In this document: piece after piece, positions 8,856 to 15,777 of the stretch
Layout of the letters: each line of letters opens with the position of its first letter
How positions within the stretch are numbered: position 1 is the stretch's first letter
From: Bifidobacterium breve
GTDB taxonomy: Bacteria; Actinomycetota; Actinomycetes; Nanopelagicales; Nanopelagicaceae
Assembly (NCBI GenBank): GCA_945890205.1
Contig: CAMDCL010000010.1
Coordinates: 1 to 32,335 of the forward strand
Direction: 5' to 3'
Length of the DNA stretch: 32,335 bases
The notes under the pieces: generated by a model
Database searches by the model: none
The model's input: only the letters and a program-made list of their open reading frames with translations
Told to the model about the DNA's origin: nothing
Position numbers and translations under genes: made by a program

Positions 8856-9938
8856 TTAACGCAGGTGTGCCTGTTCATTTAAGGTACGCAGGGCACGTAA
8901 ACCATCACTTGGCCAAATGCTAACCGTTGTGATTGAACATGGTGAAACATCAATATGGAAGATACTTTCCGCTGGCGCACCGATGACAACTTTAACCGCT
9001 GACTTTATGGTGCCGTTATGGGTAACAACTGCAACACGTTGTCCTGGAAACTCTGCCGCGATTTGATTGAGGGCTGCATCAACACGTAAGGCAACGCTGT
9101 CATAGGACTCACCCTGTGGCGGTGCAAAACCTGTAGAGGAGATCCAGGATTGATAATCACCTGGATACTTTTCCTTTACCTCATCGATTGAAAGTCCATC
9201 CCAGACTCCAAATGAACATTCAATCCAAGCCTCTTCAAACACAATGGGTAGACCTGTTTGCCGGGAAAGTGCTTCAGCGGTTTGAGTAGTTCTCTTGAGA
9301 GGCGAGGCGATAATTACATCGGGATTGAACTGTGCAACCGCTGCTGCAACCTTTTCAGCTTGCTCCAGACCAATATGGGTCAGTTCAGGATTTAGTTCAC
9401 CATCACCTGAAAACCTCTTAAAGGGGGTCAAGATAGTTTCGCCATGGCGAATCAAAAATATAGTTGTTGCCTTTTCAGTAGAGAGTAAACGCTCCGTTAA
9501 GTAGTTTTGCTGAGTTTGAATGAGTTCGCCGCCACCTGCCTGTTGGTCAAGGGCCTTATTTGCAAGTCGATCTGCATGCGAGTTCTCATCACGTGGAATC
9601 CATGTGTAGTTCACTAAGGATGGGTTATGAGCCGAGCGTGCAGATTGAGCAAGAACTCTCATATCCGCATGCTTAATCTGCCAGCGACCTGACATCTGTT
9701 CTACAACTAGTTTGCTATCCATCTTTACATCAACTGTTGCCGTTGAATCAATCTCATTAATCGCCGTAAGTCCGGCAATAAGGCCGCTGTATTCAGCAAC
9801 GTTGTTGGTTGCAACCCCGATGAAATCAAAGAGCTCAGCAATAATCTTGCCGTTTTCAGTGATGACAGATCCATACCCTGCAGGACCAGGGTTTCCCCGT
9901 GATCCTCCATCTGCTGTCAGCAAGAAGTGTCGTGCCAC
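8856..9938 (-). CDS. bifunctional RNase H / histidine phosphatase
   Basis: A 360-residue fusion typical of actinobacteria (Mycobacterium Rv2228c type). Residues 1-132 form a type I RNase H domain with the full DEDD set D10, E49, D74 and D123; it cuts the RNA strand of RNA:DNA hybrids. A linker leads to a histidine phosphatase domain from about 158, with R164-H165-G166-E167 (H165 is the phosphorylated residue) and a second His in VTHNG; in mycobacteria this half has been linked to alpha-ribazole phosphatase (CobC) activity. The start is GTG 9938, directly after the TAA of the zinc-ribbon gene with no gap, so the two are cotranscribed and probably coupled. That gene order is conserved in actinobacteria. 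Confidence 0.95.
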   Translation of the reverse strand: MARHFLLTADGGSRGNPGPAGYGSVITENGKIIAELFDFIGVATNNVAEYSGLIAGLTAINEIDSTATVDVKMDSKLVVEQMSGRWQIKHADMRVLAQSARSAHNPSLVNYTWIPRDENSHADRLANKALDQQAGGGELIQTQQNYLTERLLSTEKATTIFLIRHGETILTPFKRFSGDGELNPELTHIGLEQAEKVAAAVAQFNPDVIIASPLKRTTQTAEALSRQTGLPIVFEEAWIECSFGVWDGLSIDEVKEKYPGDYQSWISSTGFAPPQGESYDSVALRVDAALNQIAAEFPGQRVAVVTHNGTIKSAVKVVIGAPAESIFHIDVSPCSITTVSIWPSDGLRALRTLNEQAHLR

Positions 9939-10667
9939 TTAAACCCCTCGCACCAAGATGCAACGGCACTCTTCGCAGCGGACAACCTCATCATCGGCTA
10001 AATCAGCCATTCGTTTGATCTCAACGGCGTTGATTGAAAGGTTACAGCCGGTGCATGAACCTGCAGATAAGGCCGCTGCACCTGCCCCACCACTTGTTTC
10101 TCTAATCTTTTCATATAGATCGATAAAAGCTTTTTCAACCCCTTGAATAATCTCTGCCCGATCCTTGGCAATCAACTCAAGATCCTTGTGAAAGATTGTT
10201 AATGCATTTTCTTTGCGGATTTCAAGATCTGCAATAACTGCGGCATGTTCTGCCTCCTCTGCCTTGAGGGTGGAAATTCGCTCATTAATGGCATCTACGC
10301 GCATCATGATTTCCAGTTCAACCTCTTCAAGTTCAGCTCGTCGCGCACCCAGTGTTCCCACCTCATGTTGCAACTGCTCTAACTCCTTAGGTGATGCTGA
10401 TCCCCCAATAAGTCGAGCCTCATCACGAGTTATGCGAGAGACGACCTGTTCGACATCAGCTTCGGCGCGCAATAGCTCGCGCTTAACATCGCTGAGCTCT
10501 GTCTCGGCAGCGATACGAAGATCCCGGGCGTTGTTTGACTTAATTACTGTACTTGCAAGCTCTGCGATTTCTGGAAGGTTTGCAGCCTTATGGCGCAGCG
10601 AGTTTGTCTGTTGATCAAAACGTGCAATATCCAAAATCGAACGCTGGTCGCTAGGAGATGCCTTCAT
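9939..10667 (-). CDS. C4-type zinc-ribbon coiled-coil protein
   Basis: A 242-residue protein of the actinobacterial zinc-ribbon family (Mycobacterium Rv2229c type). Most of it is a long charged coiled coil (about residues 10-185, rich in Glu, Arg and Ala heptads). The C terminus is a zinc ribbon with two CxxC pairs, CTGC and CEEC. Related Cj0706/CdsZ-like proteins have been proposed to act in ribosome or RNA-related stress responses, but its function here is not known. The start at ATG 10667 is set by GGAGGAA at 10672-10678; the longer frame to 10760 reads through the promoter region. It is followed directly by RNase H/phosphatase. Confidence 0.9.
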   Translation of the reverse strand: MKASPSDQRSILDIARFDQQTNSLRHKAANLPEIAELASTVIKSNNARDLRIAAETELSDVKRELLRAEADVEQVVSRITRDEARLIGGSASPKELEQLQHEVGTLGARRAELEEVELEIMMRVDAINERISTLKAEEAEHAAVIADLEIRKENALTIFHKDLELIAKDRAEIIQGVEKAFIDLYEKIRETSGGAGAAALSAGSCTGCNLSINAVEIKRMADLADDEVVRCEECRCILVRGV

Positions 10668-10671
10668 CTTA

Positions 10672-10678
10672 TTCCTCC
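10672..10678 (-). promoter_or_regulatory. Shine-Dalgarno site of the zinc-ribbon gene
   Basis: Minus-strand GGAGGAA ends 4 bases before ATG 10667 and decides the start. It is one of the strongest such sites in the window. Confidence 0.8.
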
Positions 10679-10702
10679 GACCGCTTATGTAAGTGCGCCT
10701 TA

Positions 10703-10731
10703 AGTTTAGGTCAGGGGGTAGTGAAAACCAA
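10703..10731 (-). promoter_or_regulatory. possible promoter of the zinc-ribbon / RNase H operon
   Basis: Minus-strand TTGGTT (10726-10731) and TAAACT (10703-10708) are 17 bases apart, leaving a leader of about 30 bases before ATG 10667. The match is moderate. The unit has a normal leader with a Shine-Dalgarno, unlike its leaderless neighbours. Confidence 0.4.
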
Positions 10732-10782
10732 ATAACTCTGTCGCACAGAAATATCTGCACAATTCATTGGTAGAGCCTGGCC

Positions 10783-11940
10783 TTAAATAGTTTGTTGCTT
10801 AGTCTCATCCCGATGCTTACGAAGATAAACCATAAATGGCGTTCCACCAGTTCCAACAGCAGATGGGTTTCCTGGGGTCGCTTGGGCTTGAGCATGAATA
10901 TAGGTGCCGGCATACTCCAAATGCATCGCTCTGAAGTTTGCAACTAATTCAACACAATCGTTAAAGAGCTCAGTTAAAGAGTTTTTCTTAGTAGAAGTTA
11001 CGAAATTACGCACTGAAGGACCGGCTTCTACCGCTTGGATGAAGGCAACATGGGTAGGAGGCATATACGTGCGCATCTCCATGAGGTACTCACGCAACTC
11101 ATCCTTCTCATGCTCAATACCCAACACACCATCCATCGCAGGAATAATTGCGCTCTGAGCACCGGTTTCACCACGAAACTTTTGCCCAACTCCTTTGTAC
11201 TGATCTACTCCCTCATACACCACACCATCTGGCAGAGAAGGATTGTTGCGCCAACCAAAAATATATGGGCGAACTCGGTGAAAATAAATGTAAGGATCGC
11301 ATCGTTCTGGCATACGACCTAACACTTCATACATCGCAGTTAACGCTGTGCGCAACTTAATGAGAGCGGCTTCAACCTTTTCTGCATCTCCTGAAACTAC
11401 CGCCTCTTGAGCTTGTTCAATCGCCTTGAGCGCCTTACCAGCTTTTTTCTCAATCTCAATATGGATTAAAATGAACCATTCTTCATCTTGACCACCTAGA
11501 AAACATTGCAGTAATCCAATATTTCCACATTCGATAGCACCAGATTTATCAAATCTGCGCCAATTATCAGAGGCATAACTTTGGTAGGAGAGAATTGGTG
11601 GGCGACCTACTAATTGTCCAACCTCATACCAAGGCTTAGCCAAAACCGCTGGCATAACAGTGGCGGCCTCATTTTCACTCCATTGGTACGCCTGTCCGAT
11701 ATAACTTAATACCAACATTGCTCTTTGTATTTCAGCTTCGCCATTTAATTTGCCGATATTGAATTGGGGAAGATTCTTAACTCTTTGACGAAAGTTTGTA
11801 CCCATTAATAACTTGGGAAGATCCTTGCCAAATTGATCCCACTCTTCATTTCCAGGTGATAGAGATAGCGCCGGATCAGATGAAGGTAGATAGCCAAACT
11901 CTTCAGTGATTCCATAATCGGCGATTTTGGCTGGCTTCAT
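10783..11940 (-). CDS. indoleamine 2,3-dioxygenase family heme enzyme
   Basis: A 385-residue IDO-family protein, close to the roughly 400 residues of vertebrate IDO1. IDO is a cytoplasmic heme dioxygenase that opens the indole ring of tryptophan to N-formylkynurenine. Family marks are RPYIFGW (about 228-234), the SAIIPAMDG segment, MPPTHVAFI (about 295-303), the proximal heme ligand H340 in FRAMHLEYAGTYI, and GTGGTPFMVYL near the C terminus, which matches the GTGGT loop of IDO that closes over the substrate. The start ATG 11940 has AAGGAG at 11945-11950. The gene sits 28 bases downstream of tRNA-Val, possibly reading from the same promoter. No kynurenine formamidase or kynureninase is adjacent, so the rest of the pathway is not visible here. 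Confidence 0.93.
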   Translation of the reverse strand: MKPAKIADYGITEEFGYLPSSDPALSLSPGNEEWDQFGKDLPKLLMGTNFRQRVKNLPQFNIGKLNGEAEIQRAMLVLSYIGQAYQWSENEAATVMPAVLAKPWYEVGQLVGRPPILSYQSYASDNWRRFDKSGAIECGNIGLLQCFLGGQDEEWFILIHIEIEKKAGKALKAIEQAQEAVVSGDAEKVEAALIKLRTALTAMYEVLGRMPERCDPYIYFHRVRPYIFGWRNNPSLPDGVVYEGVDQYKGVGQKFRGETGAQSAIIPAMDGVLGIEHEKDELREYLMEMRTYMPPTHVAFIQAVEAGPSVRNFVTSTKKNSLTELFNDCVELVANFRAMHLEYAGTYIHAQAQATPGNPSAVGTGGTPFMVYLRKHRDETKQQTI

Positions 11941-11944
11941 GGAG

Positions 11945-11950
11945 CTCCTT
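11945..11950 (-). promoter_or_regulatory. Shine-Dalgarno site of the IDO gene
   Basis: Minus-strand AAGGAG lies 4 bases before ATG 11940. With no clear promoter in the 28 bases to the tRNA, it suggests translation from a transcript that starts upstream of or within the tRNA gene. Confidence 0.65.
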
Positions 11951-11968
11951 AAGTTTTATTTCAAAACG

Positions 11969-12040
11969 TGGGCGGTGAGGGTTTCGAACCCCCGACATTC
12001 TCGGTGTAAACGAGACGCTCTACCACTGAGCTAACCACCC
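11969..12040 (-). tRNA. tRNA-Val (UAC)
   Basis: The minus strand folds into a full cloverleaf of 72 bases. The acceptor stem is GGGTGGT paired with ACCGCCC, followed by discriminator A. The D arm is GCTC/GAGC, the anticodon stem TCTCG/CGAGA holds loop TTTACAC (anticodon TAC), and the T arm is GGGGG-TTCGAAA-CCCTC. CCA is not encoded (the next bases are CGT), so the CCA-adding enzyme is needed. Confidence 0.97.
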
Positions 12041-12093: not shown

Positions 12094-12549
12094 TTACAGA
12101 GCAGCGATAGCCGCCTTGTAATCAGCGTTCTCACGCGCCGCCCAACCATTCTTAACTTCCCAGCGCAGAACACCTTCTTTGTCGATTAGGAAGCTACCAC
12201 GCAAGGCACAACCCTTTGACTCTTCAAAGACTCCGTATGACTTTGCAACTGCGCCATGTGGCCAGAAATCTGAAAGAACTGGGAACTCATACTTTTCTTG
12301 CTCTGCAAAAACACGTTGTGTAAATGGAGAATCACATGAGATAGCAAGCAGCTGTAGATCATCATTTTGAAATGATGAAAGATCATCGCGTATGGCACAC
12401 AGCTCACCGGTGCAGGTTCCAGTAAATGAGAAGGGATAAAACATCAGCAAGACATTTTTTTGCCCTTTAAAGGAGGAGAGTGAAACCTTTTCTCCATGTT
12501 GATTTGCAATTTCAAAATCTGGTGCTGCTTGTCCAATTGTTAAACTCAT
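12094..12549 (-). CDS. AhpE/Bcp-type peroxiredoxin
   Basis: A 151-residue thiol peroxidase that reduces hydroperoxides. The peroxidatic cysteine is C46 in the PxxxTxxC motif (P39-FSF-T43-GT-C46). Overall it resembles mycobacterial AhpE (Rv2238c), a 1-Cys enzyme. However, a second cysteine, C51, sits five residues on (CTGELC), the CX4C spacing of Bcp/PrxQ, so an intramolecular disulfide is possible. The start ATG 12549 is set by a leaderless -10 (TAAGTT) that overlaps the stop codon of DUF3052, so this gene can be transcribed apart from it. DUF3052 and aceE neighbours repeat the order in Mycobacterium. Confidence 0.92.
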   Translation of the reverse strand: MSLTIGQAAPDFEIANQHGEKVSLSSFKGQKNVLLMFYPFSFTGTCTGELCAIRDDLSSFQNDDLQLLAISCDSPFTQRVFAEQEKYEFPVLSDFWPHGAVAKSYGVFEESKGCALRGSFLIDKEGVLRWEVKNGWAARENADYKAAIAAL

Positions 12550-12555
12550 GTCCCA

Positions 12556-12561
12556 AACTTA
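12556..12561 (-). promoter_or_regulatory. -10 element of the peroxiredoxin gene, leaderless type
   Basis: Minus-strand TAAGTT followed by 6 bases and ATG 12549. Its first three bases (TAA) are the stop codon of the upstream DUF3052 gene. Confidence 0.6.
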
Positions 12562-12951
12562 CCTCTTGCCCGCCTTACGTGCCACTAATCGAGTTGCGGT
12601 CCAATCCTTTGCGAGCGCGATGGTAGATGTAACACTCAGGCCTGCAATTGGTGCTGCATCTTGGATATCACTTGGTTCGACATGGCCAGCTCGCCCAGCC
12701 TTTGGGGTCATTACCCAAATTGGCCCCGTTTCAGACAAGTAAGTCAGCCCATCCATCAACTCATCAACTAAATCTCCATCACCTTCACGCCACCAAATGA
12801 TCACAGCATCAACAACTTCAGATGTTGATCCCTCTAAAAATGTTGTTCCTGTAATAGCCATAATCTGATCTCGAAGTGTGGAATCACAGTCGCTATCGTG
12901 GCCAACCTCCAAAACAAGGTCATCCTTGGCCAATCCCATACGTGTAGGCAC
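12559..12951 (-). CDS. DUF3052 family protein
   Basis: A 130-residue actinobacterial DUF3052 protein (Mycobacterium Rv2239c type), of unknown function. The family signature is clear: [20 protein letters not shown] in the middle, [20 protein letters not shown], then a C-terminal [12 protein letters not shown]. No catalytic motif is recognisable. The start is uncertain between GTG 12951 and the in-frame ATG 12939, which gives MGLAKDD and lies 12 bases after TAGCCT. It is divergent from aceE across about 105 bases and followed by the peroxiredoxin gene, an order conserved widely in actinobacteria. That conservation hints at a role connected with pyruvate dehydrogenase or redox state, but this is only association. 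Confidence 0.9.
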
Positions 12952-13056: not shown

Positions 13057-15777
13057 ATGAGTGAAAACTTCGAGGCGCCAGATCTCAACATTGAGCAGTT
13101 AGTCGATACCGACCCTACAGAGTCTGCTGAATGGAGAGCCTCCTTTGATGCAGCTCTCAAGGCCGCTGGTCCAGTTCGCGCTCGCTATTTAATGCTCAAT
13201 CTTTTAAATCACGCCCAGGAACAAAATGTTGGAATCTCATCCCTTCGCACCACTGATTACATCAACACTATTCCCCCAGAGCATGAGGCAAAGTTTCCAG
13301 GTGATGAGGAGCTCGAGCGCAAGATTCGCCGCATCAACCGTTGGAACGCAGCGATGTTGGTACACCGTGCGCAACGTCCAGGTGTTGGAGTCGGTGGACA
13401 TATTTCAACTTATGCATCATCTGCTGCACTGTATGAGGTTGGTTTCAATCACTTCTTCCGCGGACAGGATCACCCAGGTGGTGGAGATCAGATTTTCTTC
13501 CAGGGACATGCAAGCCCCGGAATGTATGCACGTGCATTTCTAGAAGGTCGTTTAACTGAGGACCAACTCGATGGATTCCGCCAAGAGCTTTCACATCCAG
13601 GTGGTGGACTTTCTTCTTATCCTCACCCACGTTTGATGCCAGATTTCTGGCAGTTCCCAACTGTGTCAATGGGTATTGGACCACTGAATGCGATTTATCA
13701 GGCCCGTTACAACCGTTACTTACACAACCGTGGAATCAAAGATACAAGTGATCAACATGTGTGGGCCTTCCTCGGTGATGGTGAAGTTGATGAAGTAGAT
13801 ACTTTGGGTGCAATCGGTCTTGCAACTCGCGAAAAGTTAGACAACTTAACCTTTGTTATCAACTGTAATTTGCAACGCCTAGATGGTCCGGTTCGCGGAA
13901 ATGGAAAGATTATCCAAGAGCTCGAATCCATCTTTGGTGGAGCGGGCTGGAATGTTATTAAGGTTGTATGGGGCCGTGGCTGGGATCCACTATTGGCCCA
14001 GGATCGTGAAGGCGCACTTGTAAAGATTATGAATGAAACCCTCGATGGGGATTATCAAACCTTTAAGGCTGAATCCGGAAAGTATGTTCGCGATAACTTC
14101 TTTGCCCGTGATCCACGTGCGGCAGCGATGGTTGCGAATTGGTCCGATGATCAAATTTGGAACCTCAAGCGTGGTGGACATGATTATCAAAAGCTTTTTG
14201 CCGCATATACAGCCGCTACTCAAAAAAATGGCCGGCCAACAGTTATTTTGGCTAAGACTGTTAAGGGTTGGACACTTGGCTCTCACTTCGAAGGTCGCAA
14301 CTCAACCCACCAGATGAAGAAGATGACGCTGGAAGATATTCAAAAGTTCCGCGACACATTGCACCTAGATATTCCAGATGAGAAATTAGATAAGTATCTA
14401 CCTCCTTATTACAAGCCTGCCGCTGATTCTCCAGAGGCTAAGTACCTGGCTGAACGTCGTGCAGAGCTTGGTGGTTCGATACCGCGCCGTCGTGCAATTT
14501 CTCGTCCATTAACAATGCCAGCTGACTCTGTTTATGAGTCTGTAAAGCGCGGTTCAGGACACCAAGAGATCGCAACAACCATGGCCTTTGTTCGCATGTT
14601 GAAGGATCTTGTTAAGGATCCAGGGTTGGGCAATCGCATTGTGCCAATCATTCCTGATGAGGCCCGTACCTTTGGTATGGACTCTTTGTTCCCAACGATG
14701 AAGATTTACTCTCCACATGGTCAGCAGTACACAGCGGTAGATCGTGAATTGATGTTGTCATATAAGGAATCAACTTCTGGTGTGATTCTGCATGAAGGTA
14801 TTAATGAGGCGGGATCGGTTGCTTCATTTACCGCTGTTGGATCTTCGTATTCGACACATGATGAACCAATGATTCCTATGTATATCTTTTATTCGATGTT
14901 TGGATTCCAGCGCACCGGAGATGCTTTCTGGGCCGCTGCAGATCAGATGGTTCGTGGCTTCGTAATCGGTGCAACCGCCGGTCGTACAACTCTCAATGGT
15001 GAAGGCTTGCAACATGAGGATGGTCACTCACATCTTCTAGCGGCAACTAACCCTGCGGTAGTTTCTTATGACCCAGCATTTGCATACGAACTAGGTCACA
15101 TTGTTAAGGATGGCCTTCGCCGTATGTATGGTGAAAACAGCGAGAACATTTTCTATTACCTCACCGTTTACAACGAGCCATATGTACATCCAGCAGAGCC
15201 TGAAAATCTAGATGTTGATGGATTGCTCAAGGGAATTTACTTGTACTCCCCTGCTAAGAGTTCACGTAAGAAGAGTGCACAGATCTTGGCATCTGGTGTT
15301 GGAGTTAACTGGGCTATGAAGGCTCAGCAACTTCTTGCAGATGATTGGGGCGTTAACGCATCTGTTTGGTCTGTAACTTCCTGGAATGAGCTTCGCCGCG
15401 ATGGTTTAGAAACTGATCGTCACAACCTACTTAATCCAACAGATCGTCGTAGCGCTTACATCACCAAGAAGTTGGCCCACACAAAGGGTCCAGTAGTTGC
15501 AGTCAGCGATTTCATGCGAGCGGTTCAAGATCAGGTTGCTCCATGGGTTGATCGGCCTTTCTACTCACTTGGAACAGATGGCTTTGGTCTCTCTGATACT
15601 CGTGGTGCGCTTCGCCGTCACTTCAAGGTTGATGCAGAATCAATCGCAATCGCCGTGTTGCAGCAACTCTGTAACCAAGGTGAGATCAAGCAGAGCATTG
15701 TCACGCAGGCGATGGATAAGTATCGTATCCATGATGTCTCAGCTGCAGATGCTGGCAATACAGAAGGATCGGGTTGA
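13057..15777 (+). CDS. aceE: pyruvate dehydrogenase E1, homodimeric type
   Basis: A 906-residue homodimeric E1 of the pyruvate dehydrogenase complex, which uses thiamine diphosphate to decarboxylate pyruvate and acetylate the lipoyl domain of E2. The thiamine diphosphate motif GDGEVDE is at 240-246 and ends about 25 residues later with [12 protein letters not shown]. The N-terminal [20 protein letters not shown] segment, the [11 protein letters not shown] segment and the central [12 protein letters not shown] region match AceE. Length is normal. The start ATG 13057 gives the usual acidic N-terminal tail; frames upstream reach back into DUF3052. E2 and E3 genes are not in the window. Its TGA stop overlaps the TTG start of glgE. 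Confidence 0.97.

Follow-up and report, generated by a model that had tools for sequence, protein, structure and literature searches.

The closest described counterpart of the locus presented here is fGI-2 of Candidatus Methylopumilus, a streamlined freshwater bacterium, in which repeats of about 20 nt of the tRNA-Lys(ctt) 3' end accompany small cargo of changing content, 330 bp to 42 kb in size and including metabolic genes, at a fixed chromosomal site (PMC10872708). Tycheposons, as the same source outlines them, are tRNA-anchored, cargo-carrying elements of streamlined plankton, which measure 4-200 kb and carry a tyrosine recombinase (PMC10872708). In Islander-type tRNA-integrated islands the tRNA is kept intact and a displaced 3' fragment marks the far end (PMC4383910). 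In addition, turnover hotspots are known in which the same site shows high turnover between conserved flanks in the absence of mobility genes (PMC5635113). The cargo that is the focus of this report, indoleamine 2,3-dioxygenase (IDO), has likewise been described from bacteria as a member of the IDO fold family (Yuasa et al., 2011, as cited in PMC4217691 and PMC4191572), and a review reports IDO and TDO to be mutually exclusive in bacteria (PMC4191572).

Here we describe an IDO gene which lies directly behind tRNA-Val(UAC) in the window, i.e., the whole 32,335-nucleotide stretch of DNA that was analysed. The genome that contains the window, 1.27 Mb in size and 83% complete, falls into a genus of small actinobacteria, g1, which we take to be Planktophila-type (members include BACL15 and a Candidatus Planktophila MAG); a second genus, g32, is presumably Nanopelagicus, going by SCGC AAA278-I18, SCGC AAA027-J17 and BACL4. 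We propose, with a probability of about 0.78, that the interval between the tRNA and a downstream zinc-ribbon gene, hereafter the slot, is an additive island common to g1 and Nanopelagicus, that cassettes insert at the tRNA end, and that the window's IDO came from a Nanopelagicus-like relative. The features on which the argument draws are, by window position:

8856-9938, minus strand: RNase H / histidine phosphatase gene, conserved flank
9939-10664, minus strand: gene for a CT398-like coiled coil with a C4 zinc ribbon, right slot border in two genera
10665-10782, minus strand: 118-nt interval between the stop of IDO and the start of the zinc-ribbon gene; G089 has a homologous one
10695-10707, minus strand: copy 2 of a 12/13 direct repeat flanking IDO
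10783-11940, minus strand: intact gene of an IDO-family heme dioxygenase, 385 aa (open reading frame and profile match)
11941-11967, minus strand: 27-nt leader between tRNA and IDO, with a Shine-Dalgarno motif AAGGAG (11945-11950) and a weak A/T hairpin GTTTTGAAATAAAAC
11944-11956, minus strand: copy 1 of the 12/13 direct repeat, overlapping the Shine-Dalgarno motif
11968-11986, minus strand: att-like core, the tRNA-Val 3' end CGAAACCCTCACCGCCCAC
11968-12040, minus strand: tRNA-Val(UAC) gene as called by ARAGORN, G6-C67 acceptor-stem allele, CCA not encoded, left slot border
12094-12549, minus strand: peroxiredoxin (AhpC/TSA) gene, conserved flank
12559-12951, minus strand: DUF3052 gene, conserved flank
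13057-15777, plus strand: aceE, conserved flank, which served as species marker

An initial annotation had placed IDO just 3' of tRNA-Val, between a zinc ribbon-RNase H block and a peroxiredoxin-DUF3052-aceE block, and had seen neither a duplicate of the tRNA 3' end nor an integrase. All of this stands: the gap is 27 nt, the reading frame matches PF01231 over profile positions 2-411 of 412 (E=2.3e-95; 320 bits, the cut-off being 26) and no other Pfam family, the flanks are as described, and a search of the window and the slot returned no integrase and no copy of the tRNA 3' end (up to 3 mismatches) beyond the intact tRNA. Since the tRNA-Val/IDO junction recurs in two other MAGs, G029 (BACL15 MAG-120619) and G089 (UFOp-RE-18aug17), it is not a chimera of the window's assembly. 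The small hairpin at 11953-11967 lies exactly at the tRNA 3' trailer and has the form GTTTTGTTTCAAAAC in G089. The 12/13 direct repeat around IDO was set aside as its second copy is not kept in G089, an inverted match to the tRNA D-arm at 10764-10776 was judged to be due to chance, and the 118-nt interval shows no visible homology to Nanopelagicus BACL4. It is plausible that tRNA and IDO share a common transcript, as the annotation had also suggested, because 27 nt leave little space for a promoter and none was detected on the IDO strand in or beside the gap.

The closest solved relatives of the encoded protein are IDO2 and IDO1. Its H340 is the equivalent of the proximal heme ligand of human IDO1 (H346) and is invariant in the full-length relatives aligned, R224 corresponds to the substrate-carboxylate arginine R231 and is invariant in the alignment, and the GTGGT loop is conserved. 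TDO has a tyrosine where IDO1 has F226, and the protein encoded in the window carries a tyrosine at this position and a histidine, His160, at the position of S167. In human IDO1, S167 corresponds to His76 of TDO (PMC5758539). Because the heme-ligand and carboxylate-binding residues are conserved, with TDO-like residues at two other active-site positions, we infer that the enzyme is an active heme dioxygenase whose substrate is tryptophan or a related indole, and by virtue of His160 and the tyrosine it is predicted to be a TDO-like active-site variant in an IDO scaffold. In a tree from which the Gemmatimonas, S. scabiei and Erythrobacter sequences were left out, it falls with other bacterial and haloarchaeal members, apart from the clade of IDO1, IDO2 and the actinomycete G054 (100/99). 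Both this grouping and the lack of Ser/Thr at S167 and of Phe at F226 thus place it outside the animal-type, tryptophan-efficient branch.

Tryptophan catabolism or kynurenine signalling in a community had been suggested as roles for the gene. In the window's genome a search for kynurenine genes found kynureninase (kynU) and TDO, which overlap as a pair on another contig (C36, L011:521-2583) and score below the NCBIfam but above the Pfam cut-offs; a PF04199-type kynurenine formamidase was not found in this 83%-complete genome, and the search returned it only from G089, G142 and G147. Nothing was found in favour of a signalling role. A role in tryptophan catabolism is not assured, given the TDO-like histidine and tyrosine and the co-occurrence with a separate TDO-kynU pair. 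Such co-occurrence, which is also seen in the complete genomes G015 and G223, conflicts with the mutual exclusion reported for bacteria (PMC4191572). A second, divergent TDO-like family with a weak PF03301 score was observed in G211, G231, G232 and G304.

An alternative to which we give serious weight, while leaning slightly against it, is that the IDO-type enzyme acts mainly on some other indole or aromatic compound. TDO and kynU are nearly core in g1 and independent of IDO, TDO being present in 13 of the 16 g1 genomes with IDO and in 114 of 135 overall; the complete Nanopelagicus genomes G224 and G225 carry IDO with neither TDO nor kynU; and across 41 loci IDO has no recurrent pathway neighbour and no membership in a kynurenine operon. 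Moreover, those characterised IDOs that fall outside the animal/fungal branch turn tryptophan over very slowly (PMC4217691), and the window's enzyme may belong to the same branches. These points are countered by the conservation of the heme ligand, the R231 equivalent and the GTGGT loop, and by a distant relative in Haladaptatus, which shares the histidine and adjoins kynU and an alpha/beta hydrolase gene.

Whatever the substrate, the gene occupies a site of variable content. The slot has the same borders in g1 and Nanopelagicus and is empty (about 30-80 bp) in many g1 species; elsewhere in g1 it carries YceI (G023, G035), VKOR (G032), GNAT and an unassigned protein (G016), GNAT-HEAT-DUF4442-VKOR (G020), a PALP enzyme together with DUF1801 (G034) or, in G013, cargo of up to 7.2 kb, and in Nanopelagicus it holds IDO plus other genes, up to 8.5 kb. 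In the genomes that stand nearest to the window, by an aceE identity of 91% or more or, in the case of G104 and G035, by their flank genes, the slot contains IDO, GNAT/VKOR sets, another GNAT or YceI, or is empty. None of the slot proteins tested matched an integrase or transposase. The tRNA-Val of g1 comes in two acceptor-stem alleles, G6-C67 and C6-G67, which switch together with slot content: in a g1 sample, inserts accompany 13 of 13 G-type and 4 of 19 C-type alleles (Fisher p=7e-6, uncorrected for phylogeny).

The lack of integrases in the slots examined and the switching of the tRNA allele with slot content would both fit an exchange in which homologous recombination acts on the conserved flanks and nothing site-specific is involved, which would make the slot a hotspot without mobile-element genes; half of the hotspots in other bacteria are devoid of recognisable mobile elements, and recombination there takes place in flanking core genes (PMC5635113). 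We regard this process as possible but rather doubtful as the whole explanation, since flank recombination alone predicts neither displaced tRNA ends nor conserved right ends of cassettes, both of which are found in relatives of the window. The two routes may also have acted together, with tRNA-end insertion in one lineage followed by flank exchange.

Insertion at the tRNA end, which we favour, draws on the displaced ends in particular. Copies of the tRNA-Val 3' end, hereafter tails, occur upstream of Nanopelagicus IDO, several kb from the intact tRNA, and as stretches of 17-19 bp they separate slot genes, forming direct repeats between cargos of the same slot. They show 0-2 mismatches and are present in G020 (exact), G224 (two), G228, G229 (exact), G231 and the g31 genome G211; three Nanopelagicus slots (G225, G223, G226) contain none. 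IDO stands behind the intact tRNA in the window, G029, G089 and G230, and behind a displaced end, a copy of the core CGAAACCCTCACCGCCCAC, in G224, G228, G229, G231 and G211. Its start lies 23-24 nt past a preceding tail; in G230 and the lineage of the window, where the intact tRNA precedes it, the distance is 24-27 nt. Two comparisons amount to empty and occupied sites. G230 reads tRNA, IDO, and G231, with the same leader, reads tRNA, 405-aa gene, tail, IDO; similarly, G225 has the tRNA followed by 147-aa and 220-aa genes, and G224 has the tRNA, a 429-aa gene, a tail and those same two genes. In both pairs a cassette of about 1.4 kb has entered precisely where the tRNA ends.

The window itself contains the intact tRNA only, and no tail was found in the 405 kb and 7 tRNAs of its genome that were covered. 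Insertion by the tRNA-end route is thus argued for the window from its relatives, and either site-specific insertion or flank recombination is possible there. No IDO was seen to have a tRNA end on its right that would mark this border of its cassette.

The right ends of other cassettes are conserved. The 80 nt left of the tail are 91-97% identical in G224, G231, G228 and G229, and the genes of these cassettes differ. Conserved right ends (L214:9344-9473, L219, L132, L123) contain mini-ORFs, MGAKSRKSKYMKWMNEEN, that end at the tRNA tail, and a second type with the mini-ORF MTRQSKSRGSTRKKRS likewise ends there. In the complete genome G224 (1.22 Mb), tails occur at only 3 of 38 tRNA loci, Val-UAC, Val-GAC and Arg-ACG (an Arg(TCG) hit of the scan being the same copy as Arg-ACG), always within 3 kb downstream and on the strand of the tRNA; shuffled tails gave 0.015 genome-wide hits each. 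For tRNA-Val(gac) and tRNA-Arg(acg) of this genome (G224:C1:529911-530536 and 1176722-1178775), the displaced 3' end is an exact copy, which lies 0.55 and 2.0 kb downstream, respectively, and encloses one gene in either case. A further site is tRNA-Lys, with tail copies in G104 and G147 and, in L133, an IDO that directly follows a tRNA-Lys tail. In G223 and G014, tRNA-Lys(ctt) is followed after 97 bp by the gene of a small phage-type tyrosine integrase of about 250 aa (L266:952-1704; L267:1450-2199). The complete genomes G224, G225 and G015 have only two strong integrase-family matches each, presumably XerC and XerD.

A bolder generalisation, which we consider unlikely, would be that Nanopelagicaceae harbour mini-cassettes of about 0.5-3 kb, usually of one gene and integrase-free, which have their right ends conserved, contain a tRNA 3'-end core and are mobilised in trans into several tRNA genes, and that a TDO-like IDO with a non-tryptophan role is their top passenger and crosses genera together with its tail. 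An origin of IDO from phages or viruses was also considered and rejected, there being no IDO in phage records or IMG/VR contigs. Plasmid matches reach 34-45% only. The cassette right-end sequence is absent from viral contigs, and the exact tRNA-Val end occurs in 10 of them, in several cases inside tRNA-Val genes of unrelated viruses.

The distribution of IDO bears on its origin. The annotation's view that the gene is uncommon is contradicted by its presence in 45 of the 296 genomes of the family, spread over 6 of 17 genera, including 12 Nanopelagicus genomes with all three complete ones among them; in g1 it is present in 16 of 135 genomes and in 4 of the 44 good ones. In the window, G029 and G089 the g1 gene stands behind tRNA-Val. 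In G015, G004, G008, G064, G096 and G150 (L003, L004, L005, L053, L054, L055) it lies between proB and proA, and in G011 (L006), whose contig includes only the proB side, beside proB; in these seven g1 genomes proB and proA were named by reading the sequence and not by a family search. Further sites are found in G142/G147, G104 and G077/G074. In the Nanopelagicus genome G230 (L227), IDO is a frameshifted or stop-interrupted pseudogene, still directly behind tRNA-Val.

The gene tree departs from the species marker. In the aceE tree g1, g32 and g31 each form a clade; in the IDO tree the window, G029 and G089 group with Nanopelagicus G229/G234 and the g31 genome G211 (100/98), and the IDOs of the proBA type group with g36. 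Forcing the g1 IDOs to be monophyletic costs 82.7 log units (AU p=0.00013). With G229/G234 the window shares 91% identity in IDO but only 43% in the zinc ribbon; with other Nanopelagicus the values are 86-88% for IDO and 78-79% for aceE. At 4-fold sites the IDO of the window and that of Nanopelagicus are about 0.42 identical, which is close to saturation; the transfer was thus not recent, and saturation between genera makes synonymous divergence of little use for dating. Between window and G089, synonymous comparison gives 0.556 for IDO vs 0.425 for aceE, which makes IDO somewhat closer, and aceE seems to be fast. Base composition as a sign of transfer was discarded: with a GC of 0.440 against 0.441-0.489 in the neighbourhood, IDO is ordinary.

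In G211 the tail before IDO matches the tRNA-Val allele of Nanopelagicus and the window, and not that of G211 itself. Misbinning of this contig was considered and rejected: IDO is at 87% relative to G224, but most of the remaining genes differ from those of G224 by an inter-genus distance, and the contig is hence not from Nanopelagicus. The foreign allele on an otherwise non-Nanopelagicus contig indicates that the tail travelled with IDO. Vertical descent with loss, starting from an IDO already present in the slot of the family's ancestor and later deleted or exchanged for other genes in most species, would account for its retention there by most Nanopelagicus members, for the IDO-zinc-ribbon interval common to the window and G089 and for decay in G230, but is very improbable in view of the non-monophyly of the g1 genes, their several unrelated sites including that between proB and proA, the foreign tRNA-Val end in g31, and G104, which is near the window by its flank genes and yet carries nothing in the slot and, at another site, an IDO of a different type. 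The initial annotation's proposal of acquisition at the tRNA, for which descent along the species tree was the opposing outcome, is thus largely borne out by the gene-tree conflict, the slot turnover and the tails in relatives; a second tail in the window is the part that it lacks.

Taken together, short cassettes, often of a single gene, would be inserted exactly at the 3' end of tRNA-Val(UAC), and with every insertion the tRNA would stay intact and a 17-19 bp copy of its 3' end would be pushed downstream. IDO would be the most often shared occupant, whether behind the intact tRNA or behind a displaced end, and the window's lineage probably received it from a Nanopelagicus-like relative. Integration may be carried out by a tyrosine recombinase acting in trans, or the slot may be exchanged by homologous recombination over its flanks, which may also spread its contents between species (PMC5635113); once in place, IDO would be transcribed from the tRNA promoter.

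Abundant, streamlined freshwater bacteria would thus still swap single metabolic genes at a fixed tRNA site across genera. Bacteria that hold both TDO and an IDO with TDO-like residues offer a direct and easy test of bacterial IDO function, and, if the cassettes were moved in trans, these would rank among the smallest systems of site-specific gene capture apart from integrons. With fGI-2 of Methylopumilus the slot shares the streamlined freshwater host, the tRNA 3'-end repeats and small, variable metabolic cargo at a fixed position, but it belongs to another phylum, uses tRNA Val-UAC, spans 0 to 8.5 kb, has conserved cassette right ends and carries an IDO common to several genera (PMC10872708). 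It resembles Tycheposons in its tRNA anchor and its cargo in streamlined plankton, but the slots are mostly far smaller and no tyrosine recombinase was found among the slot proteins tested (PMC10872708). As in the Islander-type islands, the tRNA is intact and displaced fragments are present in relatives, but no integrase lies inside and the window itself has no such fragment (PMC4383910). From the hotspots without mobile-element genes, whose fixed site, high turnover and conserved flanks it shares, it differs in the tRNA-end copies, which point to a site-specific step (PMC5635113). Compared with the bacterial IDOs cited in PMC4217691 and PMC4191572, the fold family is the same, but TDO co-occurs and the active site is a His/Tyr variant. 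The site is therefore a further case of a known kind of tRNA gene island, with an unusual enzyme as its shared cargo.
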